A stretch of DNA of 64,000 bases from Paracoccaceae bacterium. GTDB taxonomy: Bacteria; Pseudomonadota; Alphaproteobacteria; Rhodobacterales; Rhodobacteraceae. How positions within the stretch are numbered: the stretch's first letter is position 1; each line of letters opens with the position of its first letter. Of this stretch, positions 38,871 through 63,360 are shown one piece after another. The notes below the pieces were generated by a model, which saw only the letters and a program-made list of their open reading frames with translations, made no database searches and had not been told where the DNA came from. A program made the translations under genes and the position numbers. Location of the stretch: NCBI GenBank assembly GCA_014872815.1, contig WKFK01000009.1, positions 1 through 64,000 of the forward strand. Direction: 5' to 3'.

Positions 38871-39091
38871 GCCTCTATAGGCTTCCCCGGCAAAGCATCT
38901 TCTCAACCACAACACATCCCCTAGCCCCTGCCTAGGATCAACCAATCATTTACCCTAACCCACTGAATTTAATAAATACACCAATCAAATCGGACAAAGA
39001 TTTCACACAATAGAGACACTCCAGAAATTCTGAATTTAGGATCCAATTAACACCCCCATCGTACCACCTTAAGCACTAAGGAGTGGGTACT
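38871..39091. other. AT-rich spacer between nosZ remnant and Hint-RTX gene
   Basis: About 220 bases of markedly lower GC without a gene. Here one would expect nosR on minus; none is seen. The promoter of the next gene must lie here; no clear motif was found apart from the AAGGAG ribosome site (39078-39083). Confidence 0.5.
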
Positions 39092-43459: not shown

Positions 43460-43463
43460 TTTC

Positions 43464-44666: not shown

Positions 44667-45901
44667 CAAAGGCCCTCCTCGCGGCTGATGTATTTGAAGA
44701 AGACAAAGGAGAAAGACAGCAGGCACAGTAGGATCACCACGGCAACTGCCGCCCCTGCCCCGATGTTGGAAATGGCAAAGGCCTGTTCATAGACGTTCAC
44801 AGTCAAGGTCCGCGTACCTGCGTTACCCCCAGTCAGCAGGAAGATGTCGTCAAACTTATTAAACGTCCAAATGAAGCGTAGCAGGAAGAGGACAGAAAGG
44901 ATGCCCAAGAGCTGTGGCAGACTGAGCAGCCAGAATTTCTGAAACGGTGACGCGCCATCCATGTCCGCGGCTTCATACATCGAACTGTCAATCGACTGCA
45001 TGCGCGCCAGGATGAAAAGGAACGACAGTGGGAAATAGCGCCAGATCTCAAAAACTGTGACCATAATGAGCGCCAAAGGCCGCTCGCCGAAGAAATTGAT
45101 GGCCTCGCTGGTCACCCCCATTTGTAGGAGCAGCGCATTAGCGGATCCGGAAAACGGATCGAATAGCGTCACCCATGTGAAGGCGACCGCAATGACCGGG
45201 GCGACATAAGGGAAAAGGTATAGTCCGCGAATGAAGCCCTGCCCTCGAAAGGATTTGTTGAGCAACAGCGCCGCAAACAACCCCATCAGCAGCGCGCCAA
45301 TTGTGCCAAACACCGTGTAGAACAGCGTCACCCAAAGAACCGTCCAAAACTCCCCGCCGTCAAACAGCTGCGCGTAGTTCTTCAAGCTCAGACCACCACT
45401 GGTCAGGACAGACTTGCCACCACCCGTCACGTCTGGCTCGCTGTCTTCCACTGCGGCCTCGACCGTATCGGGATCGCCCGAAATGCCCACGGGCAAGCGC
45501 AACCGCTCCCGCGCGCCACCGTCCATGTCACCAAAATCGCAAAACAACTCGCGACCCGACAGCTTACAAGGCGCCGGAACAGCTTCGCGCAAAGTAACCG
45601 TGTCGGGAATGCGATCTGCAAGGGTGACCCCACTGATCACCTCATCCTGAGAGGAGTTCCGAATGCGGTATTCGATGCGCAAATCGTCCCCTGATCCTCG
45701 CAGGCTTTCGCGTACAATGGGTGCCGGAGGGCGCATGTCCGACAAGGTGAACGGTTTGAAACTGATCCAGATGACCGCCAGCAAAGGCAGAACCACGACC
45801 AGCGCGACACTGATCACGGTCGGCGCAAGGAGCCCCCAAGCCAAACGCGCCTCGCGTTTGGCCAGAGCTCCCGTGCCGGTCGGCGGGTGAGCCGTAGACA
45901 T
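44666..45901 (-). CDS. Sugar ABC transporter permease, MalF type, with a periplasmic insert
   Basis: 411 residues. A first membrane helix (about 22-48) is followed by a periplasmic insert of about 90 residues (about 62-150; 45,452-45,718). The insert reads LADRIPDTVTLREAVPAPCK and FCDFGDMDGGARERLRLPV, the pattern of a DUF11-like β-sandwich. The permease core then resumes with five helices and the EAA loop (YEAADMDGASPFQKFWLLSL). It forms the channel with the MalG-type partner. Confidence 0.88.
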   Translation of the reverse strand: MSTAHPPTGTGALAKREARLAWGLLAPTVISVALVVVLPLLAVIWISFKPFTLSDMRPPAPIVRESLRGSGDDLRIEYRIRNSSQDEVISGVTLADRIPDTVTLREAVPAPCKLSGRELFCDFGDMDGGARERLRLPVGISGDPDTVEAAVEDSEPDVTGGGKSVLTSGGLSLKNYAQLFDGGEFWTVLWVTLFYTVFGTIGALLMGLFAALLLNKSFRGQGFIRGLYLFPYVAPVIAVAFTWVTLFDPFSGSANALLLQMGVTSEAINFFGERPLALIMVTVFEIWRYFPLSFLFILARMQSIDSSMYEAADMDGASPFQKFWLLSLPQLLGILSVLFLLRFIWTFNKFDDIFLLTGGNAGTRTLTVNVYEQAFAISNIGAGAAVAVVILLCLLSFSFVFFKYISREEGL

Positions 45902-45972
45902 GAGAAACCTCTAAGTCGTGTAGTGCATTGCGGCCCACCCATCGAAAGATGGGCCGCGATAATCAACCTAAG

Positions 45973-47322
45973 TCACTGAATTTTAGACAGTTCGTCGTTC
46001 ATCGCCGCAACGGCAGCAGCCGCGTCAATTTCGTCATCGATGTATTGACGCACCACGCGGTTGATGGCTTGGCTGTTGATCATCTTCGATGCCAGAGACA
46101 GCTGCCCTTCGGTCACGCCCCAGCGTTTTGCAACGTCCAGACCACCGACAATTTCATCAATCATCGCTTGCTCATAAAGGTCGCCCAGAGGCGCTTTGCG
46201 ATCGACGCCAACCGGTAGTTTGGACCAGGCATCCGAGAAGGCCGAGGCGTTTTCTAAGGTACCACGACGGACAGGGAACTTGCCCTCTGGCGCAATGGAC
46301 AGTGTCTGGGTGTAGCCGTCATCCATCGCGAACTTCACAAAATCCATGGCCGCATCGGTGTCCGCATCAGAGGTGATGCCGAAGTAGCGCACGTCGCCCC
46401 AAGCTGCGCCATCTGGATTGGACGGGCCGGAGAAGTTGGTCACGATACCCGTCAAAGACGCCAATTCGCCAGAGGTTGGATCGTCGTTGATGGTGGGCGG
46501 AGCGCTGTCGCGGAGGCCAGCCAACTCGTCTAGGATGAAAGGCGACCAAATGATCATTGCCGCTTGGCCTGCAAAATAAAGCTCGCGCGACTGTTTCCAA
46601 TACAGTTCGCCGGGAGGCGAAGCTTTGGAGATGGCCTTGTAGAAGTTGAGCACTTCGGTGGTGGCTGCCTCGTCCAATGGCTGGAAACCATCTGGACCTA
46701 CTGGGCTTACGCCGTTCGCCAAGAAAACGTGCTCAAGCACCTGGCTCATGAAGTTTTCATCCACCTTAGTGGCAGCAACAAAGCCGTACATCTCCGGCGG
46801 GTTGTGCAGTATTTCCAAAGCGGCCAACACGTTGTCAAAGCTGTTGGGGGCATCCAAGCCATTGGCCTCAAACAGATCTTTTCGATAAACCACCATCTGT
46901 GTCCAGCCATCAACCGGAACGGACGCGGTTTCGCCGTTGAAATCGGCCATAGCCACAGCACCCGGTGCAAAGGTCTTCTCACCGAGTTCCTGAACAATCT
47001 CTGTTGCCGCTTCTGTGTCCAGAATGCCCGCTTCTGCCCAAGGCAGCGCGTATTGCAGCGTGTGGTAGATCACGTCTGGCAGATCACCGGCTGCAAAAGC
47101 CGCGGTGGCGCGGGTGCCGAGGTCGCTTTCGCTGACCGGGATCACTTCGACAGTAATGCCGTTGGACGATTTGAACTGCTCCGCCATTTCTTGTTGTTTT
47201 GCAAGGCGTTCCGGCTGTTCTTCGGTCGTCCAGAAACGGATGGTGTCCGCCTGTGCTGCTGCCGCTAGGCAAACAGTGAGTGCGGTGCTCATCAGTAGTT
47301 TCGTTGAGATGTGACGTGACAT
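45973..47322 (-). CDS. Sugar ABC transporter substrate-binding protein
   Basis: 449 residues, CUT1-type family 1 binding protein. A signal peptide (about 1-25, ending AAAAQA) is followed by TIRFWTTEEQPERLAKQQEM. The family's central segment is YFAGQAAMIIWSPFILDEL and the C-terminal FKFAMDDG-like part follows. GGGGAGGA precedes the ATG. It lies 12 bases after the LacI gene and 71 before the permease, so it belongs to the same transcript. Ligand is inferred from the GH63-type enzyme. Confidence 0.92.
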   Translation of the reverse strand: MSRHISTKLLMSTALTVCLAAAAQADTIRFWTTEEQPERLAKQQEMAEQFKSSNGITVEVIPVSESDLGTRATAAFAAGDLPDVIYHTLQYALPWAEAGILDTEAATEIVQELGEKTFAPGAVAMADFNGETASVPVDGWTQMVVYRKDLFEANGLDAPNSFDNVLAALEILHNPPEMYGFVAATKVDENFMSQVLEHVFLANGVSPVGPDGFQPLDEAATTEVLNFYKAISKASPPGELYWKQSRELYFAGQAAMIIWSPFILDELAGLRDSAPPTINDDPTSGELASLTGIVTNFSGPSNPDGAAWGDVRYFGITSDADTDAAMDFVKFAMDDGYTQTLSIAPEGKFPVRRGTLENASAFSDAWSKLPVGVDRKAPLGDLYEQAMIDEIVGGLDVAKRWGVTEGQLSLASKMINSQAINRVVRQYIDDEIDAAAAVAAMNDELSKIQ

Positions 47323-47334
47323 GATAGTCCTCCC

Positions 47335-48474
47335 CTATATCGGATCACGGTTTTTGATTTTGAGCGCGAGCTGCGCAGAGGTCTGCGCCGGGGGGCCATC
47401 GGACTGGCGTTCGATGAGTTTGGCTTCCGAAACTTCGCGCAAAGTTTCGGCGGCCTCCCCCCGTATTTGTCGAATTAGCAATTCCGCGAGGCGACCACCG
47501 GCGCGTTGGGTGTCAACCCAGTAGGTGGTCAGGCCGGGACGGGCATATTCGGCCTCTGGGACCCCATCATAACCAATGATGGAGACGTCGCTCCCCACCT
47601 CTAGGCCCAAGTCAGCCACCGCGCTGTAAGCGCCCAGAGCAGCCATGTCGGTGGCAAAGACAATACCCGTGGGCGGCTCAGGATGCAGCAGGAGCTGCCG
47701 CGCCTGTGCGGCGCCTTCTTCGCGGGTGCGGGCGCCGGATTTGATCAGGTCATGGTCATGTTCCAAGCCAGCTGCGGCGAGACCCGCTTTGAATCCGTCG
47801 CGGCGTAAGTGACTGTAATTAAAGTTAGATGTGCTACCAACATAAGCGATACGTTCGTGGCCGAGGCCAGCCAATCGGGTGACGGCGCTGCACATGGCGG
47901 CTTCCCCAAGAATATCGACCCAGGAGCCTTCTTGCTGTGCTGGCGGCACGCCGTGACTGGTGCGGCCGTACATGATGTAAGGCACTGATTTAGAACGCAA
48001 TAGGTCAACCCGCGCGTCCTGCACTTCGGTGCGCGGCAAGATAAACCCGTCCGCCTTATGCTCGTCGATCAAACGGTCCAGCACCGTCAGCGTGTCGGCA
48101 TCCGACGTTGCCGTGGCAATGGTCACGGTCCAGCCGTGGGCGCTGGCGGTTTCGCAGGCGCCCATGAGGAAGTCCTGCAAGAACGGGTTGTGACGATCCG
48201 GCTCGTCGGTTTGTAGCACCAAGGCCAGAGCGCGTACCCGTCCGGTGCGGATCGCTTGCGCGTGGCTCAGCGGCTGATAGCCGATCTTCTTTGCCATACT
48301 GGACACACGCAGGCGGGTGGCCTCAGATATGTCCGGATAGCCGTTGAGCGCGCGCGAAACTGTGCTCTTGGACATGCCAAGGCGCTCTGCAAGGTCATTG
48401 ATGGTGACCCTGCCCCGACGCGGGGATGTCCCGGTGTTGCCGGAGTGTTTCGTGAGGTTGCGAATCGCGTTCAT
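47335..48474 (-). CDS. LacI-family regulator of the sugar-uptake operon
   Basis: 379 residues. The helix-turn-helix is VTINDLAERLGMSKSTVSRALNGYPDIS, with the hinge helix region near GYQPLSHAQAIRTG. A periplasmic-binding-protein-like effector domain follows (about 85-350). It is the first gene of the transporter operon and lies just downstream of a perfect palindrome, which suggests autoregulation together with the operon. Confidence 0.92.
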   Translation of the reverse strand: MNAIRNLTKHSGNTGTSPRRGRVTINDLAERLGMSKSTVSRALNGYPDISEATRLRVSSMAKKIGYQPLSHAQAIRTGRVRALALVLQTDEPDRHNPFLQDFLMGACETASAHGWTVTIATATSDADTLTVLDRLIDEHKADGFILPRTEVQDARVDLLRSKSVPYIMYGRTSHGVPPAQQEGSWVDILGEAAMCSAVTRLAGLGHERIAYVGSTSNFNYSHLRRDGFKAGLAAAGLEHDHDLIKSGARTREEGAAQARQLLLHPEPPTGIVFATDMAALGAYSAVADLGLEVGSDVSIIGYDGVPEAEYARPGLTTYWVDTQRAGGRLAELLIRQIRGEAAETLREVSEAKLIERQSDGPPAQTSAQLALKIKNRDPI

Positions 48475-52195: not shown

Positions 52196-52660
52196 AACAG
52201 GTCCTTTCGCAAGGCTTCAATAACGTCGTCGAAATTCCTGCTTCTACCTTTGCACAGGTCTGGGGGCTTTGAGAACAGGCGAGCTGCGCGGCGGCGGTTC
52301 GCGCCACGACGGTGGGCTGGGGCAACGATTGTCCGGGTTTGGGGGCGGTTTTTTACGATTTGTTAAAGTGTCACGGAGCGAGCGAGACACGCTTAATCCG
52401 AAGCAAGACCAGAACAACACACTGTCTATAAACACTATTTTTCCAATTTAGGTGGCATCAAGACGGAGACACAGTGCAAATGATGGCGGGACAATTGTCA
52501 TCCGCTTCGCCATTTATTCGCGTCAAACCTGAACGGAGTGCCACAGCGCTTGCGCAGTGCTGCCACGATTGGAACACATTTCCTCCACAGCTTGGTCGTG
52601 AAGGTGAGAACTTGCTGCCGCATTTCCTCCTGGTCGCATGATAGAGAGGAAGCTGCGTAG
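52196..52660. other. Divergent region between asmA and the kinase operon
   Basis: The 465-base gap contains an AT-rich stretch (about 52,340-52,450, with TTTTTTACGATTTGTTAAAG and TATAAAC) that may hold the kinase-operon promoter, and a possible 55-codon reading frame (52474-52641). No other feature was seen. Confidence 0.5.
52474..52641 (+). CDS. Possible small leader ORF before the kinase gene
   Basis: A 55-codon frame starting at GTG with GGAG five bases before it, or at an ATG two codons later. The product starts VQMMAGQLSSASPFIRVKPE and contains LAQCCHDWNTFPPQLGREGE. It ends 19 bases before the kinase ATG. No homologue is recognised; it could be a real small protein, a leader peptide or chance. 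Confidence 0.3.
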   Translation: MQMMAGQLSSASPFIRVKPERSATALAQCCHDWNTFPPQLGREGENLLPHFLLVA

Positions 52661-53977
52661 ATGAATTGCGCTGAGGAAAACGTGACTGTGCTGCCTGAGG
52701 GCACCGAGCTTTTGCGCGGACAGTACCGGATTGCGCGCAGTTTGGGCCAAGGGGGATTTGGCCTGACGTATCTTGCCAGCGACAGCCTCAACCGCGTGGT
52801 GGTTATCAAAGAGTGTTTTCCGGAACAGATTTGCCGACGCGTGGGCAAAGAGGTTGTGCCTGCAGGCCCTGAGAGCGCGCCGTTTTTTGCCTCGGTGCTT
52901 GAGCAGTTTCAGGCGGAGGCGCATCAACTGGCTGGGTTGGATCATCCCCGTATCGTTGGCGTGCATCAGACATTTGCAGAGAATGGCACAGCCTATACGG
53001 CGATGGATTTTGTCGAGGGGGTGGATCTGCATGAATTGGTGGATCACGCGCCGGGGCGGTTGACGCCCAGATTGGTGGACAAGGTCCTGCGCCAGGTGCT
53101 GGACGCGCTCAGCTATCTGCATGACCGCGGTGTGCTGCACCGGGATGTGGCACCGGACAACCTGATCCTTGGGGCCAATGGTGATGTGACGCTGATTGAT
53201 TTTGGCGCGGCCTATTCTTCAGGTGATGCGGAAGGCGGACAAAGCCAACGCATGCTGGCTGTGAAGGATGGCTACTCGCCGCCTGAGTTCTATTGTGCAG
53301 AGGGGCTGCAGGGGGCGTTCAGCGATGTGTATTCTCTGGGAGCGCTATGCCATCTGATCTTCACAGGGGAAGCGCCGCCGGATGCGCAAACCCGACTGGA
53401 AATGGTCGATGCGGGGCGCATGGACCCCTATGTGCCGCTTGAATCCACAGATTTTGACATCGACATCCGCCTGAAACTGGCCACAGACCGTGCGCTGGCG
53501 TTGGAACCCAAAGACCGGCTGCGCTGTGCCGATGACTGGTTTGCGGTGATGGATGGCCCCATCCCCAAACCGCTGGCGGTTTTTGACCCGGCGGTGATCG
53601 GCGTAATTGAAGAGCTGGTACACAAAACCAACAAGGTGCTCACGCCGGGGCTTCCGAAGGCGTTGCAACCGAAAACCGCGTCGGAAGACACACGCAAGGC
53701 CCCTCCGCCCCCAAAGCAATATGTCGATATTTTTGGGGATCCGATCGACGATGTAGAGGCCTACCTCAGAGAGCAGGATGGCCTGATCAAAGCGCGCGCC
53801 AAGACGCCCACACGCCTGTTGCAACAGGGGGACTTCCTGCGCCGACCAAGCACTGAGGGTGTGGATCACGCCAAAGCCGCCTCGCCAAAGCCCGATGCTC
53901 CTACCCTATTTCACAAAGTTCGTGACCGCCTGAAAGGCGACAGGTCCACGCCGAACTCCCGACTATTCCTAATCTGA
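52661..53977 (+). CDS. Cytosolic Ser/Thr protein kinase
   Basis: 438 residues of the bacterial eukaryotic-like kinase family. The glycine loop is LGQGGFGLTY (about 28-37), catalytic Lys50 is in VVIKECF and the helix C Glu is near 86. The catalytic loop is HRDVAPDN (160-167), the metal motif DFG is at 180-182, and the activation segment ends in SPPEFY. All catalytic residues are present. The C-terminal tail (about 300-438) is proline- and charge-rich without a membrane segment or sensor domain. It is the first gene of an operon with FHA and PP2C partners, its likely binding partner and antagonist. Confidence 0.9.
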   Translation: MNCAEENVTVLPEGTELLRGQYRIARSLGQGGFGLTYLASDSLNRVVVIKECFPEQICRRVGKEVVPAGPESAPFFASVLEQFQAEAHQLAGLDHPRIVGVHQTFAENGTAYTAMDFVEGVDLHELVDHAPGRLTPRLVDKVLRQVLDALSYLHDRGVLHRDVAPDNLILGANGDVTLIDFGAAYSSGDAEGGQSQRMLAVKDGYSPPEFYCAEGLQGAFSDVYSLGALCHLIFTGEAPPDAQTRLEMVDAGRMDPYVPLESTDFDIDIRLKLATDRALALEPKDRLRCADDWFAVMDGPIPKPLAVFDPAVIGVIEELVHKTNKVLTPGLPKALQPKTASEDTRKAPPPPKQYVDIFGDPIDDVEAYLREQDGLIKARAKTPTRLLQQGDFLRRPSTEGVDHAKAASPKPDAPTLFHKVRDRLKGDRSTPNSRLFLI

Positions 53978-53988
53978 AGGGACATCTC

Positions 53989-55077
53989 ATGCGCTTCATT
54001 CGCGATATCATTGCCGAGAAAACACAGGCTGCCAGTCAAGATGAGACGCAGGCGCTCCGCTATCCTTTACAGCTCCGGGAGCAGGATCGCGCAGACGTCG
54101 CGCCGCGCCAAACGCCTTCTGTGAATATCGAAGCTCAGGAGCCTCCAACCCCCGAGGACCCAGCCGCTCAGTTTACCGCGCCTCAGCCCGCAGCGGCCCC
54201 AGAGGATGCACCTGCGGTAGACATGTCAGCGATCTCGGCAGCGCTGCGGAGCGAGCCGACGCCCGAACGCCTTGCCGCTGATGTGCCTGATGAGGCCGCA
54301 GCACTTGAACCATCCAAGGCAGTAGATCCCTTTGCGACGCTGTTTGCAGAGGCGGAAGACGAACCGGAGATGATGTCGTCTTCGTCAGATGCGGCCCACG
54401 AGGATGTCCTGCCGCCTGCCGAGCAGGAAGAACCGGAGCTTTCCCCCGCGGCACAACCTGAGGCTTCGGCCCCGCGCCCTGCTCCGCAAGAGCCCATGTT
54501 TGTGCCGTCTCCTGAGACTGCACCGGCGGCAGAGGTGCCGGAGGTAGATTTGGCAGCGTTGCAGGCCAACATGCCCGCGCCGCAACCAACAGGGGTACGG
54601 GGATCAAAAGGCCGCGTGAAAACCCGGCTATTGGGGTTCAGCGCGCCTGCGTCGCAAGCCCAGGACCCAATGTCTCAGGCCCGGGAAGCACCGGCCTCCG
54701 CCCAGGCGCAGTTTCCGGTCGGTTGGCTGGTCGTGGTGGATGGCCCCGGGCTTGGCACCTCCTTTTCCCTGTTTGACGGGTTGACGCAAATTGGGCGCGG
54801 CGAGGGGCAGACCGTGCGTCTGGATTTCGGCGACACCACCATTTCCCGGGAAAATCATGCGGCCATCGCCTTTGACGGCGAACAACGTCAATTCTTCTTT
54901 GGCCACGGAGGCAAGGCAAATCTGGTGCGGCTCAACGGCCGCCCGGTTCTCAGCACGGAACCTTTAGACAGCAACAGCCTCATTCGGATTGGCGAAACAA
55001 CGCTGCGTTTTGTTGCGCTATGCGGGGCGGACTTTGTCTGGGGTGACGCTGGAGCGGGACATGACAACCTTGGGTGA
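53989..55077 (+). CDS. FHA-domain protein with long disordered N-terminus
   Basis: 362 residues. Residues about 30-235 are rich in Pro, Ala, Glu and Ser and likely disordered, a suitable kinase target. Residues about 245-345 are an FHA phosphothreonine-binding domain, with GLTQIGRGEGQTVRLDF (Gly-Arg at 269-270) and DTTISRENHAAIAFD (Ser, Asn-His). It begins 11 bases after the kinase gene and overlaps the PP2C gene by 17 bases. It could join the kinase to the GTPases. Confidence 0.9.
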   Translation: MRFIRDIIAEKTQAASQDETQALRYPLQLREQDRADVAPRQTPSVNIEAQEPPTPEDPAAQFTAPQPAAAPEDAPAVDMSAISAALRSEPTPERLAADVPDEAAALEPSKAVDPFATLFAEAEDEPEMMSSSSDAAHEDVLPPAEQEEPELSPAAQPEASAPRPAPQEPMFVPSPETAPAAEVPEVDLAALQANMPAPQPTGVRGSKGRVKTRLLGFSAPASQAQDPMSQAREAPASAQAQFPVGWLVVVDGPGLGTSFSLFDGLTQIGRGEGQTVRLDFGDTTISRENHAAIAFDGEQRQFFFGHGGKANLVRLNGRPVLSTEPLDSNSLIRIGETTLRFVALCGADFVWGDAGAGHDNLG

Positions 55078-56002
55078 GTTCTGCTTCGATGTGGCGACGG
55101 GACTGAGCCTTGGCGCCCGGGAGCGCCAAGAGGACGCGGTTGTGGCCGATTTTCCCCGCGGTGCGCCGATGGGTTTCGCCGTGTTGTCAGACGGCATGGG
55201 CGGCCACGCCAGTGGCGATGTTGCAAGCGGTATTGTGGCCACGGAACTGTTCAGCGAATTGAAGCTGTTGTCTTCGGCACCGGCCCAAATGGAGCAGGTG
55301 ATTGGCGCGGCCTTGCAAGAGGCTGTGACAGAAGCCAATCGATGCATTGCCCTTTATGAAGGGCAGCACCCAAGTGCGCAGGGCATGGGGGCCACTTTGG
55401 TGGCGCCGGTGCTGTTTGAAAACCGGCTGTATTGGGTCTCCGTCGGAGACTCTCCGCTCTACCTGTTTCGGCAAGGCAAGTTGTTTCGCTTGAACGAAGA
55501 TCATTCCTACGCGGCGCAGATTGACCGTTTGCACGCGCAGGGCATCATTCCTTTGGAAGAAGCCCGCAACCATCCCGATCGCAGCGCCTTGGTCTCTGTT
55601 CTGGCTGGTGGGGAGATCGCGAAAATCGATTGCCGAGCCGAGGCGATGTCCCTGAGGCATGGAGACATCGTGCTGGCGGCCAGTGACGGGTTGCACAGCC
55701 TGACAGATGACGCGGTGGCGGAGGTGCTGCAAGACCAGCAGCAGAACAGCGGTGGGCAGATTTGTGACGCGCTTTTGCAAGCGGTGGCGGCTCAGAAGTG
55801 TCCAGAACAGGACAACCTGTCGCTTTGTGTGATCAAGGTCGATCCCATGGGGGCCGATCAAAACGCCTCAAAGCCAGACCCCGTTGTCAGCAAAACCGAC
55901 ACACCTGTGTTGGAGACCGGACAGGTCGTTCACATAGACCGCAACTCGCACCAAGGTGTCGTGCGCACTGTGGTGAGCCTGACCCGGAAGGCGCGAAAAT
56001 GA
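55061..56002 (+). CDS. PP2C-type protein phosphatase
   Basis: 313 residues. Metal-binding motifs are RQEDAVVADF (Asp25), AVLSDGMGGHASGDVAS (Asp44, Gly45) and, near the end, EQDNLSLCVI. The GATLVAPVLFENRLYWVSVGDS and DGLHSLTDD motifs are also present. All Mg/Mn ligands look intact. The last 60 residues extend past the catalytic domain. It would reverse the kinase. The ATG at 55061 lies inside the FHA gene end; a frame from 54989 is a shadow of FHA coding sequence. Confidence 0.9.
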   Translation: MTTLGEFCFDVATGLSLGARERQEDAVVADFPRGAPMGFAVLSDGMGGHASGDVASGIVATELFSELKLLSSAPAQMEQVIGAALQEAVTEANRCIALYEGQHPSAQGMGATLVAPVLFENRLYWVSVGDSPLYLFRQGKLFRLNEDHSYAAQIDRLHAQGIIPLEEARNHPDRSALVSVLAGGEIAKIDCRAEAMSLRHGDIVLAASDGLHSLTDDAVAEVLQDQQQNSGGQICDALLQAVAAQKCPEQDNLSLCVIKVDPMGADQNASKPDPVVSKTDTPVLETGQVVHIDRNSHQGVVRTVVSLTRKARK

Positions 56003-57192
56003 TGCACACACAACCAGATCAGATCATTGGAGAATTGCAGTCAGCCGTACAAAAGGGGTTGCTGCCCACGCGGCACCGCGCCCACGGCACTGCGGTGCTG
56101 GCGCATTTGACAGCCCCGGTGCGCGTCGCCGTTTTGGGCCGCCCCAACAGTGGGAAAACCTGCGTGGTGAATATGTTGCTGGGCGGGGATTATATCCGTC
56201 TGCCCCAAGGGCTGGAGTACATTCAGGTGATCCACGGTCCGGCGGCGCAAGTGACGTTGAGCTGGCCGGATGGCAAGGCGCAGCGTTATGAAATGGCGGC
56301 GGCAAAGCCTGACGGCGCGCAACACGCGACGATCGAGCTGCCACTAGAGGCGCTAAAAACAACGGCCTATTGTGAAGTGTCTCTGCCTGCCGAGCCCATG
56401 CGACAACAGGATATTTTGCAAAACCTGAGCGCCTTTGGGCAGGTGTTTCTTTGGTGCAGTGAAGCCTTTGACACCGAGGAGCAGGCGCTGTGGCAGAATG
56501 TTTCTGATGAGATCAAAGACCACAGTTTCTTGGTCATGACCAAAGCGGATCGCCAAATCATGAAGGGCGATCTGGCCGAACGGCGCGCGACGCTGGAGCT
56601 GGCTGCGGCGGATGCCTTTCTGGGGCTGCACCCCGTGGCAACATTGCACGCGTTGAAGGCGCAGGCAGATGCCGATCAAAGCGCCTTGTGGGACGCCTCC
56701 GGTGGGCGCGGGCTCGCGGAGGCCGTGCAAGCGCAGGTGCGCCGGGGGCGGGCTGCGGATCTGGATCAGGCGGAGGTTCTGTTGGCGCAGTTGGGCAAAG
56801 GTGTTCAAGCCGGTGGCCGCGCGACCGAGGCACCTGCTTTGGCTGGGCAACCCGCCGTCACACCAAACACCGATGAGACCACTCTGATAGGGCGTTTGCA
56901 GGATCAATTGCAAACCGCCGCGCAAGAGATGTTGGCGGATTTGGACGCCGGGAAAATTCCGGATGCGGGCGGCTTGCTGTCCCGATGTTCCTCCACATTG
57001 CGCGCCTTGACCCAGACACTGACGCAGGAAGCGGCCCAAGACTCCGAGGCGGCCGAGATGTTGGCGGACGCGCAGGACGGCGAGGAAACGCTGATGCTGT
57101 TGCAGGTCGAGCAGAGCCCGACGGCGGCAGAGGATGCTGTGGTGGTGCTGTTGCAATTGAAGAAAGAAATGGGCGCGAGGGCAACGGCATGA
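55999..57192 (+). CDS. Dynamin-like GTPase-related protein 1, divergent
   Basis: 397 residues. The P-loop is VLGRPNSGKTCVVNMLLGG (47-54) and the base-specificity motif TKAD is at 181-184. Where the DxPG motif is expected, the sequence reads CEVSLPAEPM, so the switch II glycine site is degenerate and hydrolysis may be impaired. The C-terminal part (about 290-397) is helical. No membrane segment. The ATG overlaps the PP2C stop by four bases, and the next GTPase gene overlaps its end by four. Confidence 0.8.
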   Translation: MMHTQPDQIIGELQSAVQKGLLPTRHRAHGTAVLAHLTAPVRVAVLGRPNSGKTCVVNMLLGGDYIRLPQGLEYIQVIHGPAAQVTLSWPDGKAQRYEMAAAKPDGAQHATIELPLEALKTTAYCEVSLPAEPMRQQDILQNLSAFGQVFLWCSEAFDTEEQALWQNVSDEIKDHSFLVMTKADRQIMKGDLAERRATLELAAADAFLGLHPVATLHALKAQADADQSALWDASGGRGLAEAVQAQVRRGRAADLDQAEVLLAQLGKGVQAGGRATEAPALAGQPAVTPNTDETTLIGRLQDQLQTAAQEMLADLDAGKIPDAGGLLSRCSSTLRALTQTLTQEAAQDSEAAEMLADAQDGEETLMLLQVEQSPTAAEDAVVVLLQLKKEMGARATA

Positions 57193-59270
57193 ACATGCAG
57201 GTCAGACAAGAGACCAAGCCGGATGTGCGCACGTCCCGGCGGATTTCCAATCTGCGCACGGGGCTAGAGGGGCTTGGGCAACTCGGGAAAGATCTTGATG
57301 CTCTGGAACGTCTGCTGGTGCAGCTGGCGCAGGTGACGGGCAAGCACACCGCCAAGACTGTGGAGCGGCTGCGCAAGGATGTGGCTGGGTTTGAGCCGAC
57401 AATCACGGTTTTGGGACAGGTCAAATCTGGGAAAACCACGTTGGTGAACGCCATGGCGGGGTGGTCCGACCTGTTGCCGTCGGATGTGAACCCATGGACC
57501 TCTGTGGTCACATCCCTGCATCTGAAACCGGCGTCGCGCCCAGCCGAAACCGGAGCGAGTTTCCAGTTCATGACCGAGGACAATTGGGACCGGTTGCTGA
57601 ACCAAGGGGGGCGGATCGGCGAGATGGCCAGCCGCGCGGGCGCGGAAAGTGAACTGGCCAAAATTGGTGAGCAGATCGAGAAGGTCCGCGCCAAGGCACA
57701 GAAGCGGCTGGGCAAGAAATTTGATCTGCTGCTCGGGGAAACCCATAACTACGGCTATTTCGACAAGAACCTGCTAGAACGCTACATCGTCCTAGGGGAT
57801 GATTTTGGAGAGGCGGACAGCGAGCAGGGTCGGTTTGCCGATATCCTCTCCTCGGCTGATTTAACGCTGAATTGCGACACAGTGCCCGTGCCGCTATGCC
57901 TGCGCGACACGCCGGGGGTGAACGACACCTTCATGATGCGCGAGCAGGTGACGATTCAGGCGTTGCGTAGCAGTAAGATTTGCGTGGTGGTGTTGTCTGC
58001 CGGTCAGGCGCTGACCTCGGTGGATATGGGGCTGATCCGGCTGATCTCCAACCTGAAGTCGCGCAATGTGCTGATCTTTGTGAACCGGATCGACGAGCTA
58101 CCGGATCCAGCCAATCAGGTGCCTGAGATTGAAGCGAGCATCCGCCAGACATTGCACAACAAACAGGGGCCAGAAGACGCAGAAATCCTGTTCGGGAGCG
58201 CCTATTGGGCCAACAAAGCCCTCAGCGGCAACATCGAAGGCATGCCCAAGGTTGCCAGCAAAGCCTTGTTTGAATGGGCGGAAGTGGCGCTGGAGCCGCA
58301 CCAGGGGACACTTGGACCACAGGAAATGGTCTGGGAGCTGTCCGGCATGGGGCACCTTTACCGGGCGCTGTCAGAGCGGGTGATTGAAGAACAGGGGCAA
58401 CAGCTCTTGCAGAAAACGGCCAACGCCGCCCTGACCGTTGCGACCAGTGAATTGGCCGCGGGAGCTGTGCAGATCGGTGCCAAACAGGCCAATGGCGCGC
58501 CGCTGTCCACTTATGATGCTTTGAAGGCCTTCCAAGACATTGCCGACTTTCATCAGAAAGCCTTTGCCGAAGAGCTTGATGCAGCCGTGAGCGAGTACCA
58601 CACGCGCGCGGATCGCTCCCATGCGAAGTTCATTGATCGCGCGTTGCGCTCTTTGCTTTCGCATCTGGAGAACTACGGCAAAGACATCGTGTGGGACTAC
58701 GACCCCGTGGGTTTGCGCATGTTACTGCGCACCGCCTACTCCGCGTTTGCGGCCAAGGTGCGTGGGCTGTCCCAAGCGCGTTATGAGGCGGCCATGACAG
58801 ATGTGGCCATGCTATACGCCAACACATTTGGGTCGGCGGTGGAAGGTATCCAGATGGCGCCGCCAAGTCTGCCGGACCTCCCTGCCCCCATCGCGTTGGG
58901 GCAAACCATTGCGTTGGATTTCAATGACGGATGGTGGATTTCCTGGTGGAACCGCATTCGAGGCTTCAATGCGTTTTCCAAACGGTTCCAGAACCTGATT
59001 GCGCGGGAAACCGAAGACTTCATGACGCAATCCAAGGACATTCAATCCGCTTTGGTACGGGATGTGGCGCAGACCAGTCTGCGGGAGTTCTTTGAGCAGC
59101 ATAGCGACATCCTGCAAGACATCAGCGCCGCGCCCCAAAGCCAGGAAATCGAAAGCCTGTTCCGTACAGGCGAAGAAGGCCAGAAACGAACGCAGCTTGA
59201 ACAGCTGACCACAGAGCTTGAGGCGCTGCTGGCCGCCACAACCGCCCAATCCGGAGGAACCACCATATGA
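57189..59270 (+). CDS. Dynamin-like GTPase 2, large
   Basis: 693 residues, the size of bacterial dynamin-like proteins. The P-loop is VLGQVKSGKTTLVNAMAG (76-83), a switch I threonine lies in NPWTSVVTSL, DTPGVNDTF is near 239 and NRID near 299. A long helical stalk region (about 400-693) holds a tryptophan-rich hydrophobic patch, NDGWWISWWNRIRGFN (about 579-594), a plausible membrane-contact paddle. The helical C-terminus follows. It overlaps its neighbours by four bases on both sides. Confidence 0.85.
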   Translation: MNMQVRQETKPDVRTSRRISNLRTGLEGLGQLGKDLDALERLLVQLAQVTGKHTAKTVERLRKDVAGFEPTITVLGQVKSGKTTLVNAMAGWSDLLPSDVNPWTSVVTSLHLKPASRPAETGASFQFMTEDNWDRLLNQGGRIGEMASRAGAESELAKIGEQIEKVRAKAQKRLGKKFDLLLGETHNYGYFDKNLLERYIVLGDDFGEADSEQGRFADILSSADLTLNCDTVPVPLCLRDTPGVNDTFMMREQVTIQALRSSKICVVVLSAGQALTSVDMGLIRLISNLKSRNVLIFVNRIDELPDPANQVPEIEASIRQTLHNKQGPEDAEILFGSAYWANKALSGNIEGMPKVASKALFEWAEVALEPHQGTLGPQEMVWELSGMGHLYRALSERVIEEQGQQLLQKTANAALTVATSELAAGAVQIGAKQANGAPLSTYDALKAFQDIADFHQKAFAEELDAAVSEYHTRADRSHAKFIDRALRSLLSHLENYGKDIVWDYDPVGLRMLLRTAYSAFAAKVRGLSQARYEAAMTDVAMLYANTFGSAVEGIQMAPPSLPDLPAPIALGQTIALDFNDGWWISWWNRIRGFNAFSKRFQNLIARETEDFMTQSKDIQSALVRDVAQTSLREFFEQHSDILQDISAAPQSQEIESLFRTGEEGQKRTQLEQLTTELEALLAATTAQSGGTTI

Positions 59271-60208
59271 CCACACAGCATGGTGAGACACTGCCAACCG
59301 CACAGAGCCGCAAACCGCGCATTGCCTTGATGGGGGAGTTCAGCGCCGGGAAAAGCACATTGATGAACCTGCTTTTGGGCTGTGACCCCATGCCAGTCCG
59401 CATCACTGCAACGCGCGTGCCACCGGTTTGGGTGACCCATGGGACGCACGGGGCGACGCTGGTGCATCATGACGGTTCGGAAGCTGAGTTCAGCGGGGCC
59501 GACATCAGTGAGGCGCCGATTGAGGACACTGCTTTTGTGCGGTTTTGCATGGACTCAGATATTCTCAACCTCTGCGATTTGATCGACATTCCAGGGATTT
59601 CGGACCCCAATCTCAACCACGAAAGCTGGATGGCCTTGCTGGATGAAGTGGACTGCGTGATCTGGTGTACCCACGCCACGCAGGCCTGGCGGCAATCCGA
59701 AGCGGCGCTTTGGGCGCAAATCGGTGAGGCGATAAAAGGCCCTAATCATCTGGCTGTGACGCAATTTGACAAGCTGCGTAGCGAGCGGGATCGCGGTCGG
59801 GTGTTGGCGCGACTGGAAGCTGAGGCGGGAGAGGTTTTTGACAGCATCACGCCGATTGCCACTTTGGATGCCATCAACGCCGGGATGGATGAGAGCGCCT
59901 GGCAAGAAAGCGGCGGGGCTGCGCTGATTGAACGGATGGTCGGCATGTTGGTGCAACAGGCAGAGACACCCGCGCCCGGACAAGGCAAAATTAACTCCGG
60001 CGCTTTAGAAGCACAGGGGGCTTCCGAGGACCTGAGCCCTCTTGAAACATCCACTTCGGTCGCGCACGACGAGCCGGTCTCACACGATGCGCCAGAAAAG
60101 AAAGTTGTGCCGCGCCGCGTGCGCCCCAAATCACCTAACCCGACACGGCCTTCCAGCGACGATTTGCAATCCATGTCTCTTCAAACTGTTGGTGGTGGCC
60201 AAAAATAA
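59267..60208 (+). CDS. Dynamin-like GTPase 3, short
   Basis: 313 residues, G domain only. The P-loop is LMGEFSAGKSTLMNLLLG (23-30), with a threonine-containing switch I (VRITATRVPP), DIPGISDPN near 106-114 and TQFDKLRSE near 164. A flexible Ser/Pro/Arg-rich tail (about 235-313) has no stalk, so it would need a partner, probably the large GTPase encoded just before it. Confidence 0.85.
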   Translation: MTTQHGETLPTAQSRKPRIALMGEFSAGKSTLMNLLLGCDPMPVRITATRVPPVWVTHGTHGATLVHHDGSEAEFSGADISEAPIEDTAFVRFCMDSDILNLCDLIDIPGISDPNLNHESWMALLDEVDCVIWCTHATQAWRQSEAALWAQIGEAIKGPNHLAVTQFDKLRSERDRGRVLARLEAEAGEVFDSITPIATLDAINAGMDESAWQESGGAALIERMVGMLVQQAETPAPGQGKINSGALEAQGASEDLSPLETSTSVAHDEPVSHDAPEKKVVPRRVRPKSPNPTRPSSDDLQSMSLQTVGGGQK

Positions 60209-60229
60209 AACTGGAAAGGACAGCGTTCT

Positions 60230-60592
60230 GTGACACTTGCGGATCGGCTTGAGATGTTGAGGTCATCGCTCTCCAACTGCCAATTGGTGGCTTTTGGGGA
60301 CGCGGAGGCACGTTTGATCCTCAAGGCCGCCCATGCGACCTCCATGCCGCGCGAAACGCTTGATCACCTTTGCGAGGAAGCCACCACCTGCTTTGCAACG
60401 GCTGATATGATGGGGGCTCAGGGCGCGAGCGCCAATGAAGCTCTTGTGCTGACGGAACGAGAGAGCCGGGTTTATCTGCGTGCCAACAATCGAACGGATT
60501 TCCTGTGTGTCGTCAGCGCGCTTAGCGAGGATCCGGATGCCGTGACGGAACAGGGTTTGCGGGCCTTGCATGAAATAGCGGGGGCGGCATGA
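60230..60592 (+). CDS. Roadblock/LC7-like small protein (tentative)
   Basis: 120 residues starting at GTG with AAAGGA at nine bases. The order of a short helix, β-hairpin, helix and an EALVLTERESRVYLRANNRT hairpin followed by DFLCVVSALS resembles Roadblock/LC7 proteins, which often partner small GTPases. The match is by pattern only. It starts 21 bases after GTPase 3 and overlaps the next gene by four bases. Confidence 0.6.
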   Translation: MTLADRLEMLRSSLSNCQLVAFGDAEARLILKAAHATSMPRETLDHLCEEATTCFATADMMGAQGASANEALVLTERESRVYLRANNRTDFLCVVSALSEDPDAVTEQGLRALHEIAGAA

Positions 60593-61353
60593 TTGCCCCG
60601 CGCCCCAAAAAGCCACAGGACGCGCCAGTGACAGCTGACGGCACAGAGTTGGCAGCGCTGCGCAAGCTGGCCGCAGAGAGCCGTGGCGCGTATGGCACGT
60701 GGCGCCCCGTTGCCTCTGACGCAGAGGCTTTGGACGCGATTGTCACTGAAGTTGGCGAGGTTTTATTGGCACGCCGCATTCGGGTCACGGCGCAAGACAC
60801 TGGCATTGCCGTGGAAATGACCGTCAGCAACCGCCACCTTGTCACGCTCGCGGGCCCTCAAGGTCAGGTGCAGGTGCAAGATGCCGGGGATGTTGTGCGC
60901 ACCCTGCGAGAGGGTTTCACAGGGGCTGGGGCCTTGAAATTTGAGATCACAGAGCGCGCGCCGATGATGAGTCAAACCGCGCGGTCTTGGCCGCATGACG
61001 CACTGCGACAGGCCATGCAGGCGCCAGACAGCGCGCGCGATGGCGCGCAAGCCACGTTGATCAGAGAGTTGCAAGCGATGGCAGACGCGTGGCTGGACCT
61101 GCAGACACAGCAGAGCAGCGGCGCGGCAGAGAGAGTGTCCCTGCTTACCAAACACGCGAATGCTTTGGCGGAACACCGCACTGACGCGACGCCTCTGCAG
61201 CGCGTGCACCCGCGGCTGTCACTTGTGCCAATCAGTGAGGCTTTTCTCCTGGTGGACGTCTGTCTGGGCCAGCAGCGACTGCTACTGTCCGGCGATCCCC
61301 AAAGTCGCGCAGACTATATTGCGCAATGGAGGGGGTATTGCAGCGCGCCGTAG
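60589..61353 (+). CDS. Unknown protein, last gene of the kinase/GTPase operon
   Basis: 254 residues, not recognised. No signal peptide or membrane segment. An N-terminal half (about 20-115) with ARRIRVTAQDTGIAVEMTV looks α/β and may resemble the preceding Roadblock-like fold. A helical middle and a β-rich end (LSLVPISEAFLLVDVCLGQQ) follow. Its four-base overlap with the previous gene suggests a joint function. Confidence 0.75.
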   Translation: MIAPRPKKPQDAPVTADGTELAALRKLAAESRGAYGTWRPVASDAEALDAIVTEVGEVLLARRIRVTAQDTGIAVEMTVSNRHLVTLAGPQGQVQVQDAGDVVRTLREGFTGAGALKFEITERAPMMSQTARSWPHDALRQAMQAPDSARDGAQATLIRELQAMADAWLDLQTQQSSGAAERVSLLTKHANALAEHRTDATPLQRVHPRLSLVPISEAFLLVDVCLGQQRLLLSGDPQSRADYIAQWRGYCSAP

Positions 61354-61371: not shown

Positions 61372-63360
61372 TCACTGGGATTGAGCGGCGCGGTGATGTT
61401 TTTGCTGCAGCCGGCGTGTCGCCGCCGCTGTGATCGGATCAAAGGCACGCATCGCTGCAGGGCCCAGCCTTTGCAATTGTCTGGCCGCTTCTCCGCGATC
61501 CCCGTAGGTCCATGTCGACTTACCCAAACTCACTGGAGGATAACGGCGCCCCTGATCGATCCCCAAACAGCGGACGATTGTCGCGGCGATCGGGTCTAAA
61601 ACCTCGTCCCTACCGGCCAGTCGGCGTTCCAAGACTTCCTGCAAAACATCCACCGCTGCGCTCAAATGCGTTGACCCACCCAAAGCGATATAGGTGCCGA
61701 CGTCTTCGTTTTGCAGCACTGTGGCCACTTCGATTTCTTCCTGTTTGGATTCCGGGTGGCGCACGTATACGCGCAGCACGTTGGAGGCCGCGACAAGCTC
61801 CCGATCATTGTCGGGGTCGCCGTCATTGACGCCAAAAGGAAGCGCCCCAAACACTTGAATTTCGTAGTGGCCCGGCTCCGCAAAGGCAAACCCGCCGGAG
61901 CCGAAGTTGATCTGAATGTTGTCTTCGACAAATCCGCCATGCGGCACAGCATCAAAGGCACCGGGGTCGACGTCAAAGCAACGCTCCACAATGGGATGAA
62001 AATGCGAGAGGTCGCCCGTGCCGCTACGCCCGTTTTTGAGTTTTCGGACCGAAATCTGCAGAAAATTGCCCTTTGGGTCGAGCGATCGCTTGTTCATTTG
62101 GAGAGGTTGACCGCTGGTATTGGTCATGCGCACCGCCAAAAACACCGGTTGTCCGAACTCAAACACCCCTCCCCCGGCATCAGGCGGCGATATTTGCAAG
62201 GAGACGATGTCCAGATCCCCTTCGGGAAGATACGGCATATACCCGCCGCTCCCATCCGCCCAATAGGTCGCAGAATGGAAGGCGGCACCGCCCGGGATGA
62301 TCTTTTGGCGTGGCGCATGGCGGAGGAATTCCAGCTCATCCGGATCGAAAGTGAAGTTGAATTTCTCCCAGAATTCGCGCTTGCGGTTGCCACCTCGGTA
62401 GCGCCAGTCGTAGTTCATAAAAGACGTCGAATTGGCCCGCCCCACCTCGCGCTCAAAACGATGGGCCAGATTGAGGCTGTGGCCCAGCTCATGCACCGCA
62501 GTCTGGATCACCTTGCGGTCGGTTTCCTCCCGCACGCGCGCGCGAATTTCAGCTTCAAATACGGCTGTGCCTTGACGCGGCAATCGCGCGGTTGTGTCAA
62601 ACATCACGCCCAAAAGCCCGGCGCGTGTCGGCTTCCCAAGCCAAAGCAATTGCTGGTTCCACGCCGCGGTTGTTAAATCCGCATTTGCCATTTGCGCCAT
62701 AAGGGCATGGAGCTGGGTGCTGCCCCATTTGGCCTCGTTTTTGGGGATTTTTGACTGCCCACCCTGATCCAGGATCTCAAATCCCGCATTGGCAAAGGCG
62801 GTGTGAATGGTCACCGGTTGATTTTGGAACAGGTAACTTGGAGGCGGCCGCGTGCCGGTCTCGCTTTCCAACTCCACGGAGAGCTGACGCAGCATGGGGG
62901 ATTGCCACTTTGCGGACAGATCAAACCACTGGCGGGACGGCAAGCCCGGCAATTGCGCGTCCACTTTCAGGCTGAGCAACAAAACGTCTTCGGCATCCCC
63001 CTCTGCGACGGTCAACGTGCCATTGGCCACGGTGCCTTCGCGCGTTTCCAGCACAACGGTCCATGGCTGGGGCGTGTCTGCCGCGATCTGGGTGCCAGGC
63101 GCGGTGCGAAACGACGTCAGATAGTCCCGGCGGCCAAAATCTGTGCCGAAGAGATCGCCCGAGATCACCCCGCACATCTCAAAATCGACGCGCAGGTCCA
63201 AGGACAGGCGATGGTTGCCTCCCAAATAGCTGCCATCGAGGGTGGCGGTCGTCTCAAGCGTACTTGACCCGACTTCCACCTGCGGCCCATGCGCCGAAAA
63301 GTCCGATTGGGCAAGGCTGTCAGACGGGTTTCCGGTGTTATCCGGAGGGTGGCCGCTCAT
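61372..63360 (-). CDS. Metzincin-like zinc protease
   Basis: 662 residues. The zinc motif HELGHSLNLAH (290-300) is HExxHxxxxxH, and SFMNYDW follows as a Met-turn, so the catalytic core is metzincin-like. The N-terminal 200 residues are β-rich and the C-terminal half (from about 400) has Ig-like strands. No signal peptide was found, so location is unclear. The gene is convergent with the kinase/GTPase operon, 18 bases between stops. The start at 63360 has a weak ribosome site. Confidence 0.78.
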   Translation of the reverse strand: MSGHPPDNTGNPSDSLAQSDFSAHGPQVEVGSSTLETTATLDGSYLGGNHRLSLDLRVDFEMCGVISGDLFGTDFGRRDYLTSFRTAPGTQIAADTPQPWTVVLETREGTVANGTLTVAEGDAEDVLLLSLKVDAQLPGLPSRQWFDLSAKWQSPMLRQLSVELESETGTRPPPSYLFQNQPVTIHTAFANAGFEILDQGGQSKIPKNEAKWGSTQLHALMAQMANADLTTAAWNQQLLWLGKPTRAGLLGVMFDTTARLPRQGTAVFEAEIRARVREETDRKVIQTAVHELGHSLNLAHRFEREVGRANSTSFMNYDWRYRGGNRKREFWEKFNFTFDPDELEFLRHAPRQKIIPGGAAFHSATYWADGSGGYMPYLPEGDLDIVSLQISPPDAGGGVFEFGQPVFLAVRMTNTSGQPLQMNKRSLDPKGNFLQISVRKLKNGRSGTGDLSHFHPIVERCFDVDPGAFDAVPHGGFVEDNIQINFGSGGFAFAEPGHYEIQVFGALPFGVNDGDPDNDRELVAASNVLRVYVRHPESKQEEIEVATVLQNEDVGTYIALGGSTHLSAAVDVLQEVLERRLAGRDEVLDPIAATIVRCLGIDQGRRYPPVSLGKSTWTYGDRGEAARQLQRLGPAAMRAFDPITAAATRRLQQKHHRAAQSQ

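Follow-up and report, generated by a model that had tools for sequence, protein, structure and literature searches.

The locus lies at positions 52,661–61,353 of the window, the 64,000-nucleotide stretch of contig WKFK01000009.1 from a Paracoccaceae bacterium that was analysed as a whole. Eight genes (K, F, P, G1, G2, G3, R and U) follow an intergenic region:

52196–52660, no strand: intergenic region separating K from a divergent AsmA-like gene and presumed to carry the operon's promoter
52661–53977, plus strand: K, soluble Ser/Thr protein kinase, 438 aa
53989–55077, plus strand: F, FHA protein, 362 aa
55061–56002, plus strand: P, PP2C-type Ser/Thr phosphatase, 313 aa
55999–57192, plus strand: G1, stalkless GTPase-domain protein, paralogue of G3, 397 aa
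57189–59270, plus strand: G2, full-length dynamin-like GTPase, Cj-DLP1-like, 693 aa
59267–60208, plus strand: G3, active-type GTPase domain without a stalk, Cj-DLP2-like, 313 aa
60230–60592, plus strand: R, predicted Roadblock/LC7-fold protein, putative GTG start, 120 aa
60589–61353, plus strand: U, protein of no known family, 254 aa
U residues 145–254: C-terminal half, candidate Roadblock/Rag-C-terminal-domain-like region; the N-terminal half is a separate alpha/beta domain

All eight reading frames are open and occur in the order named by a preliminary description of this DNA. K and F are separated by 11 bases, F and P overlap by 17, the junctions P/G1, G1/G2 and G2/G3 each overlap by 4, G3 and R are 21 bases apart, and R and U overlap by 4; these coordinates confirm that the eight plus-strand genes are coupled as described there. 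A scan for sigma-70-type consensus promoters found 0 sites in positions 52196–52660, and a combined consensus promoter and terminator scan performed no better than on shuffled sequences. Hydrophobic segments of transmembrane strength were found in 0 of the 8 window proteins, and thus a cytoplasmic, peripheral machine fits.

To ask how far this arrangement extends, loci were collected by G2 only, a procedure that operons without G2 would escape. The named relatives are the best 80 of 542 loci, and on that account a separate draw from the family was added, with at most three candidates scored per genome. A six-frame profile search, run on the plus strand of each locus with consecutive pieces of one gene merged, recovered the exact order K-F-P-G1-G2-G3-R-U in 69 of 81 loci, comprising the window and 68 of the 80 named relatives. 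Occurrence beyond this genome, fixed beforehand as the point on which the preliminary proposal could fail, was thus borne out. Nine of the 12 loci without the full order are interrupted by a contig end; among the others, L133 is ambiguous at an end, no R could be detected in L115, and G1, R and U are all missing from L128. Upstream neighbours fell into 46 clusters over 73 loci and downstream neighbours into 40 clusters over 71 loci, and the conserved order is therefore not a by-product of general synteny. No same-strand gene ended within 100 bases before K in any of the 73 named loci that have K and an upstream neighbour. In the family draw, G2 is followed by G3 for 102 of 106 G2 genes. Pairwise distance matrices of the eight proteins correlated with r of 0.78–0.92 over 56 loci, values to which shared species history contributes and which are as expected for one co-inherited unit. 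Taken together, the eight genes are a coupled unit of fixed order that is common to many marine Rhodobacteraceae.

Presence is patchy: within the genus it is seen in 8 of 23 further genomes, and within the family 76 of 294 further genomes carry a G2 relative. Leisingera has G2 relatives on 12 plasmid records; the one record examined has the full order, and RefSeq labels its G1, R and U as hypothetical. No relative was found in the viral contigs scanned. In search of a clean empty site, ~8 kb was compared in four genomes of the genus that have no G2 match and retain the AsmA-like neighbour; none of the four showed the genes tested for the downstream flank, and hence no insertion site could be read. 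Variants of the arrangement are informative in two ways. At L144, L158, L196 and L201 the kinase–FHA–PP2C trio adjoins G2–G3 in another order or place, indicating that the link between trio and GTPases is independent of one frozen order. At L193 and L195 an otherwise typical operon has no kinase ahead of F, and in many other arrangements of G2–G3 across the family, kinase, FHA and PP2C are all absent from the stretch examined; K is therefore not essential to the dynamin core. Some of these other arrangements include PAS proteins or ferredoxin–flavin reductase–globin fusions.

The rows in which residue conservation of K, F, P and G1–G3 was counted come from the window, the 80 named relatives and 40 loci of the family draw, with some genomes represented twice. 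K matched Pfam Pkinase (E 6e-31) and has the hallmarks of a Hanks-type Ser/Thr kinase, namely the catalytic Lys (108/109), the HRD Asp (110/110) and the DFG motif (111/111); it has a partly conserved C-terminal motif and no transmembrane segment (maximum KD19 1.14). F had no Pfam match, and the NCBIfam FHA models FhaB (E 5e-8) and OdhI (E 2e-4) both scored below their cut-offs. The phosphothreonine-binding residues that characterize FHA domains are nevertheless in place, with Arg, Ser and His each in 114/114 rows and Asn in 112/114. F consists of a helix-like N-terminal stretch (MRFIRDII), a long linker, Thr212 within GRVKTRLLGF, and the C-terminal FHA domain; Thr212 is found in 113/113 rows ungapped at that position (114 rows in total). 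P matched Pfam PP2C_2 (E 2e-10), the Stp1 model (E 4e-41, below its cut-off) and the PstP structure 2cm1 (E 3e-22), and the metal-binding Asp columns of PP2C phosphatases are conserved in 115–116 of 116 rows. Family matches and near-invariant active or binding residues together support the earlier identification of K, F and P as a phospho-signalling trio.

The preliminary description had counted three dynamin-like GTPases, which holds for G2 and G3, both above the Pfam cut-off for Dynamin_N (E 3e-13 and 6e-10, respectively), but not for G1, which gave only P-loop matches below cut-off. G1 keeps the P-loop Lys in 98/105 rows and a G4-type Asp in 98/110, whereas, of the 101 rows with a WC motif (113 rows in total), just 6 have DxxG ahead of it. 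Its profile matched that of G3 at 99.7% over 205 columns. Judged by sequence, G1 is a degenerate paralogue of G3 that has kept the P-loop and lost DxxG (the G3 motif), and not a canonical dynamin-like GTPase. G2 is long enough for a stalk, its nearest solved structures are 5owv_A and 2j68, and the key residues of the G1, G3 and G4 motifs are present in 121/121 rows. A WWxxWW motif at residues 582–587, whose W columns are conserved in 120, 121, 116 and 121 of 121 rows, is a candidate membrane tip. For G3, the best solved structure is 5owv_C (E 1e-7 over residues 15–220), and the P-loop Lys (116/116), DxPG (117–118/118), G4 Thr (114/118) and G4 Asp (118/118) are retained; with a median length of 311 aa over 118 rows (type I loci), it comprises a GTPase domain plus a tail. 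These matches establish G2 and G3 as sequence homologues of the Cj-DLP1/Cj-DLP2 tethering pair.

R and U matched no curated family above cut-off. Among 39 members of R there was no Roadblock match in Pfam; each of the 11 families listed matched a single member. The predicted model of R has an alpha-beta-beta-alpha-beta-beta-beta-alpha fold, which is that of the Roadblock/LC7 superfamily and resembles MglB and the Ragulator subunits at fold level. The predicted fold identifies R as a Roadblock/LC7 protein, and the earlier Roadblock-like call, made from the sequence alone, is correct at this level. Profile comparison of U with R gave no match. The 118-aa protein “rb” of other arrangements, which we presume to resemble Roadblock, gained no support from Pfam, NCBIfam or solved structures, had no profile match to R, and was left without a name. 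MglB and Ragulator dock on Ras-like GTPases.

Based on these findings, we propose that the operon encodes a membrane-remodelling machine controlled by phosphorylation, namely a phosphothreonine-gated heterotypic dynamin system at the cytoplasmic membrane, with a probability of about 0.5. The proposal starts from the gene order, the coupling, the conservation, the residues, the R fold of the predicted model and the fact that G2 and G3 are homologous to the Cj-DLP pair; every contact, the way in which each effect runs, the involvement of the membrane and the output are what we infer. G2 would be the full-length, membrane-facing dynamin-like protein (DLP1-like). G3, stalkless, hydrolysis-competent and DLP2-like, would activate or cap G2, dimerising via its GTPase domain, and G1, as a degenerate copy of G3, should bind nucleotide but hydrolyse it poorly, and may thereby occupy that contact as a brake or placeholder. 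A platform of the Roadblock type, made of R and probably U, would dock on the GTPase domains, comparable to MglB and Ragulator. Phosphorylation by the soluble K would fall on at least one threonine, for which the invariant Thr212 of F is the strongest candidate. Phosphothreonine would be read by the FHA domain of F, which would thereby change the GTPase or regulator that F holds, and P would reset the switch. As its output, the system would build up or take apart the G2 machine on the cytoplasmic membrane's inner face.

In favor of this mechanism, the active and binding residues of K, F and P are near-invariant, Thr212, outside the FHA domain, is invariant, and G2 and G3 match the two partners of one solved heterotypic pair (5owv_A and 5owv_C). 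Against it stand the kinase-less typical operons L193 and L195, the G2–G3 arrangements without the trio, the missing stalk of type I G3, and the fact that not every bacterial dynamin-like protein acts on membranes, as E. coli RdcA illustrates (PMC6510439). Nor is any Roadblock protein known to us for which an action on a dynamin has been demonstrated. FHA as a bridge, stress protection and membrane action, all part of the preliminary model, are either not supported or conjectural. A more specific and tentative version, which we consider less likely than not, would impose a Rag/Ragulator- or Mgl-type control layer on dynamins: R and a two-domain, Roadblock/longin-like U would be the platform for G3 (active) and G1 (inactive), and FHA-read Ser/Thr phosphorylation would decide whether G3 or G1 engages the membrane dynamin G2. 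If true, this would to our knowledge be the first case in which a Roadblock platform and a kinase/phosphatase pair run a dynamin machine. Other roseobacters would then employ the same dynamin core with the kinase trio replaced by redox, PAS or AAA modules.

The operon could instead be a signalling device rather than a membrane remodeller, in which the dynamin-like proteins, depending on GTP, allosterically switch an enzyme that is soluble or in the membrane and the kinase trio is a second input; we consider this rather unlikely. According to PMC6510439, the dynamin-like GTPase RdcA (YjdA) of E. coli is soluble and both binds and activates the diguanylate cyclase DgcE, and RdcA/RdcB acting on DgcE would be a precedent. 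The lack of transmembrane segments in the eight window proteins, the absence of a stalk from the GTPase domains G1 and G3, and the sensory and redox parts (PAS proteins and reductase–globin fusions) of other arrangements also accord with such a device. G2, however, resembles the membrane-acting Cj-DLP1 and BDLP1 and keeps its tryptophan-rich motif. The scan of flanking genes covered 141 of the 419 that lie within three genes of the 80 loci, taking one per cluster, nearest first, at 80–1000 aa and up to ~48,000 residues, with no control set and no rate claimed. Among these 141 proteins no single enzyme family recurs: Pfam matches were mainly to regulators, transporters and metabolism, and no family matched more than 5 proteins among the first 25 of 195 families.

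The same flanks bear on an anti-phage or stress-triggered membrane defence, with the kinase as a sensor of infection or damage and the dynamins as proteins that seal the membrane or breach it, a reading we regard as improbable. A PADLOC scan at E 1e-5 listed 25 families, with matches to mad3 (4 proteins), mad8 (4), AriA (3), AbiLi (2) and two HEC-02A models (2 each), and single matches to ZorC, TIR effectors, TniQ, subtilase, PD-T4-6 and others. These scattered matches, the patchy presence, the G2 relatives on Leisingera plasmid records and the similarity of K to PD-T4-6 defence kinases would suit a defence role. Yet ZorC and TIR each match 1 of 141 flank proteins with no control set as a yardstick, similarity to PD-T4-6 may be common to any bacterial kinase of this class, the LeoA and LeoBC matches of the GTPases are weak, and the viral-contig scan found no relative. 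Even less credible, and indeed highly improbable, is the view that the trio is the threonine phosphorylation pathway of type VI secretion (T6SS) with the GTPases as unrelated passengers; PpkA, Fha and PppA are reported to act in T6SS, but trio and GTPases occur together in 68 of 80 loci. TssC (PF05943) has no match in the window's genome and is found in 15 of 50 other operon-bearing genomes, with 12.0 expected (Fisher p 0.28). A type VI secretion switch was rejected for this genome on the missing TssC match and the non-significant co-occurrence. No clear enrichment beside defence or secretion genes, for which the preliminary description had suggested looking, emerged from these data.

The operon genetically ties a dynamin-like pair to a complete phosphorylation switch and a Roadblock protein, and because this tie recurs across Rhodobacteraceae, how a bacterial dynamin is controlled can be tested directly through eight genes of marine bacteria that grow in culture. 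Roadblock platforms are known for Ras-like GTPases, and the operon suggests that they may be linked to dynamins as well.

A literature search of titles and abstract openings found no described system with exactly this gene order, in agreement with the preliminary description. Whether the GTPases belong to a well-described system is answered in part: G2 and G3 are homologous to Cj-DLP1/2, but nothing known to us ties that pair to a kinase, an FHA protein, a PP2C or a Roadblock protein. In GarA/OdhI-type switches, a kinase-phosphorylated Thr is bound by the protein's own FHA domain. F is similar in having a single FHA domain after an invariant Thr, a candidate intramolecular ligand, and differs in its longer linker and extra N-terminal helix; its motif presumably also differs from that of GarA. 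MglA–MglB and Ragulator/Rag likewise combine a Roadblock-fold protein with GTPases, whereas the GTPases here are dynamin-like rather than Ras-like and no Roadblock Pfam model reaches R. The PpkA–Fha–PppA pathway resembles the trio in that kinase, FHA protein and PP2C act together; it differs in that the window's genome has no TssC and K has no transmembrane segment. In E. coli signalling, RdcA/RdcB (YjdA/YjcZ) combine a soluble dynamin-like GTPase with the product of a partner gene, but the excerpt of PMC6510439 describes a single dynamin, the target DgcE and no kinase trio. LeoABC of enterotoxigenic E. coli has three dynamin-related genes in a row, and LeoC and LeoB together correspond to a single split dynamin according to PMC4159319, whose excerpt mentions neither a phospho-trio nor a Roadblock protein. 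G2 and G3 matched the LeoA and LeoBC models weakly (E 1e-8 and 4e-7), and membership of LeoABC was rejected on these scores and on domain layout, G1 and G3 being two paralogous GTPase-domain copies and not a split dynamin. Like Campylobacter jejuni Cj-DLP1/Cj-DLP2 (PDB 5owv), which tether liposomes in vitro (PMC6104087), G2 and G3 are different dynamin-like proteins encoded by adjacent genes with intact G1, G3 and G4 motifs, and they best match chains A and C, respectively. A helical stalk or trunk is not found in both partners, as G3 has a median of 311 aa compared with 614 for 5owv_C; without a stalk in type I G3, the Cj-DLP tetramer cannot be carried over unchanged. To such a pair, the operon adds a degenerate third GTPase, a kinase, an FHA protein, a PP2C phosphatase, a Roadblock protein and U.

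The eight plus-strand genes claimed in the preliminary description, together with their pattern of gaps and overlaps, were borne out: the junctions are, in order, a gap of 11 bases, an overlap of 17, three overlaps of 4, a gap of 21 and an overlap of 4. The operon and the other loci noted in the window are as follows.

52661-61353, plus strand: eight-gene operon K-F-P-G1-G2-G3-R-U
61372-63360, minus strand: convergent gene 18 bases after U, encoding 662 aa
32661-35009, plus strand: GGxGxD-type repeat protein, RTX-like (translation, by eye)
39083-41020, plus strand: GGxGxD-type repeat protein, RTX-like (translation, by eye)
41154-48474, minus strand: sugar-uptake locus with ABC ATPase, glycosidase-like protein, two permeases, solute-binding protein and LacI-type regulator (by eye)

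Family models identified K as a Ser/Thr kinase and P as a PP2C phosphatase, and G2 and G3 passed the Pfam Dynamin_N cut-off, so that these parts of the earlier assignment stand. The FHA protein F matched NCBIfam FHA models below their cut-offs and zero Pfam models, and the first of the three proposed GTPases, G1, gave P-loop matches only, all below cut-off. No curated family matched R or U above cut-off; a structural model predicts a Roadblock/LC7 fold for R.

A scan of 84,980 species genomes yielded 542 stretches encoding a G2 relative, of which the 80 best were retrieved with up to 10 kb of flank at either end, and their gene order was read with profiles of the eight proteins. The exact order K-F-P-G1-G2-G3-R-U was found in 69/81 loci (these 80 plus the window), which disposes of the possibility that it occurs in one genome alone; the operon is more than a single-genome accident. 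Nine of the remaining 12 loci are truncated at a contig end, and in the others the profiles gave an ambiguous order (L133), no detectable R (L115) or the order K-F-P-G2-G3 (L128). The closest named relatives of the window's G2 are from Shimia. Around the same loci the flanks vary, with 73 upstream genes in 46 clusters and 71 downstream genes in 40; none of the 73 is a same-strand gene running into K within 100 bases, and 10/71 lie within 100 bases after U. By eye, the product of the window's convergent gene bears a zinc peptidase motif of the HExxH type, and it gives a weak Matrixin match. Its cluster holds only three members (the window, L039 and L066, the latter two being copies of one relative's contig), and we therefore place it outside the operon. 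Across loci, overlaps are frequent at P-G1, G2-G3 and R-U; G1-G2 and G3-R, by contrast, mostly have a gap (median 101.5 and 60), which makes the window's tight G1-G2 overlap atypical. The eight proteins diverge in parallel (r 0.78-0.92 in 56 loci with all eight called), in part through their common species history; conservation is lowest in U (mean identity 0.24).

Because the 80 loci had been picked by likeness to G2, an even draw of the family Rhodobacteraceae was added. At E 1e-10, G2 matched in 77/295 genomes, the window's own included, and 88 stretches covering all 76 others were fetched and their genes labelled. The full operon was present in 36 of the 76 and a partial one in 14 more (together 50/76); among the partial ones, some are truncated at the edge of a contig, in others R, U or P went undetected, and in L193 and L195 F is not preceded by a kinase. 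Another arrangement occurred in 32 genomes, 6 of which also carry the operon. G3 follows G2 in 102/106 G2 genes of all labelled stretches, and in the other arrangements the pair is accompanied by R and U, a 118-aa protein ('rb'), PAS proteins, an AAA/ABC-type ATPase or a ferredoxin-flavin reductase-globin fusion. The kinase-FHA-PP2C trio adjoins G2-G3 in another order or place at L144, L158, L196 and L201. The phospho-module is duplicated at L196 (G291), with the trio directly 3' of U plus F-P before G1, and at L178 (G165), with an additional opposite-strand F before K. Four loci read rb-G2-G3-G2-G3 (L148, L150, L152, L205); at L151, L153, L200 and L211, R, the ATPase and G2-G3 have the reductase-globin nearby and often GFA proteins too. 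Pairs of related dynamins, commonly two pairs in tandem, occur in other Rhodobacteraceae with differing partners, as though a single dynamin core were combined with interchangeable sensors.

G2 was found in 8/39 relatives searched, the window's own apart; all 8 belong to the 23 congeneric ones. Outside the family, matches are rare: a class draw (385 genomes) gave only the window's own and one family member, and a phylum draw (398 genomes) gave nine, eight within the family and one outside (G1018) with a G2-G3 pair without the remaining operon genes. G2 relatives occur on 18 plasmid records, 12 of them Leisingera plasmids of ~33-179 kb; on one with the window's arrangement, RefSeq names the genes kinase, FHA, PP2C, hypothetical, dynamin, dynamin, hypothetical, hypothetical. 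An Acinetobacter plasmid (NZ_CP033119.1, L242, 47-1924) encodes an 'rb'-like protein one gene from an annotated roadblock/LC7 protein.

In 111-116 rows, same-genome duplicates included, the kinase lysine, HRD and DFG of K, the metal-binding aspartates of P and the FHA Arg, Ser and His of F are near-invariant. K in the window has no transmembrane segment, and few relatives have one (KD 1.8 reached by 4/76). F comprises an N-terminal helix-like MKFIRDII, a poorly conserved linker, GRVKTRLLGF and the FHA domain; the motif's threonine is kept in 113/113 ungapped rows. GarA/OdhI, whose FHA domain binds the protein's own phosphothreonine, have a similar layout; the threonine of F is a candidate for such a phosphothreonine. 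Among the GTPases, G1 matches the G3 domain profile at 99.7%, keeping the P-loop lysine in 98/105 and DxxG in only 6/101. The WWxxWW motif of G2 is almost invariant and, from its sequence, a reasonable candidate for a tip that touches the membrane.

We propose that the operon most likely encodes a switch, gated by phosphothreonine, that controls the assembly of a heterotypic dynamin at the cytoplasmic membrane. The phosphorylation state would be set by K and P and read by F, R and U would bind the GTPase domains, and G2 would be driven by G3 and held back by G1. Gene order, coupling, conserved residues and the homology of G2 and G3 are observed, and the R fold comes from a model; the contacts among the proteins, the directions of effect, the membrane action and the purpose we infer. 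The chief alternative is that the operon serves signalling alone, like RdcA/RdcB (PMC6510439). A defence role is possible but less likely, the points in its favour being the operon's patchy presence, the plasmid-borne G2 relatives and scattered matches to defence models among flank genes. A T6SS switch is excluded in this genome, where TssC has no match; a T6SS link is not supported by co-occurrence either, TssC being present in 15/50 operon genomes (12.0 expected, p 0.28) and in 24 of all 76 G2-positive genomes (18.3 expected, p 0.09).

The literature covered, with preprints and most subscription papers outside it, holds no description of such a dynamin operon with FHA, PP2C, Roadblock or Roseobacter. 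The nearest three-gene dynamin set, LeoABC (PMC4159319), differs in layout. The first solved-structure matches of the G2 profile were Campylobacter jejuni Cj-DLP1 (5owv_A, E 2e-10) and Nostoc BDLP (2j68, E 2e-8), and that of G3 was Cj-DLP2 (5owv_C, E 1e-7); since the best matches are the two partners of one structure, G2-G3 is related to the Cj-DLP1/Cj-DLP2 pair, which is reported to tether liposomes (PMC6104087). The operon differs from that pair in G3, a GTPase domain plus tail (median 311 aa), and in G1, a second copy of the G3-type GTPase domain. We file it as a variant of the heterotypic bacterial dynamins, one defining feature of which is a stalk in both partners, whereas G3 is stalkless.
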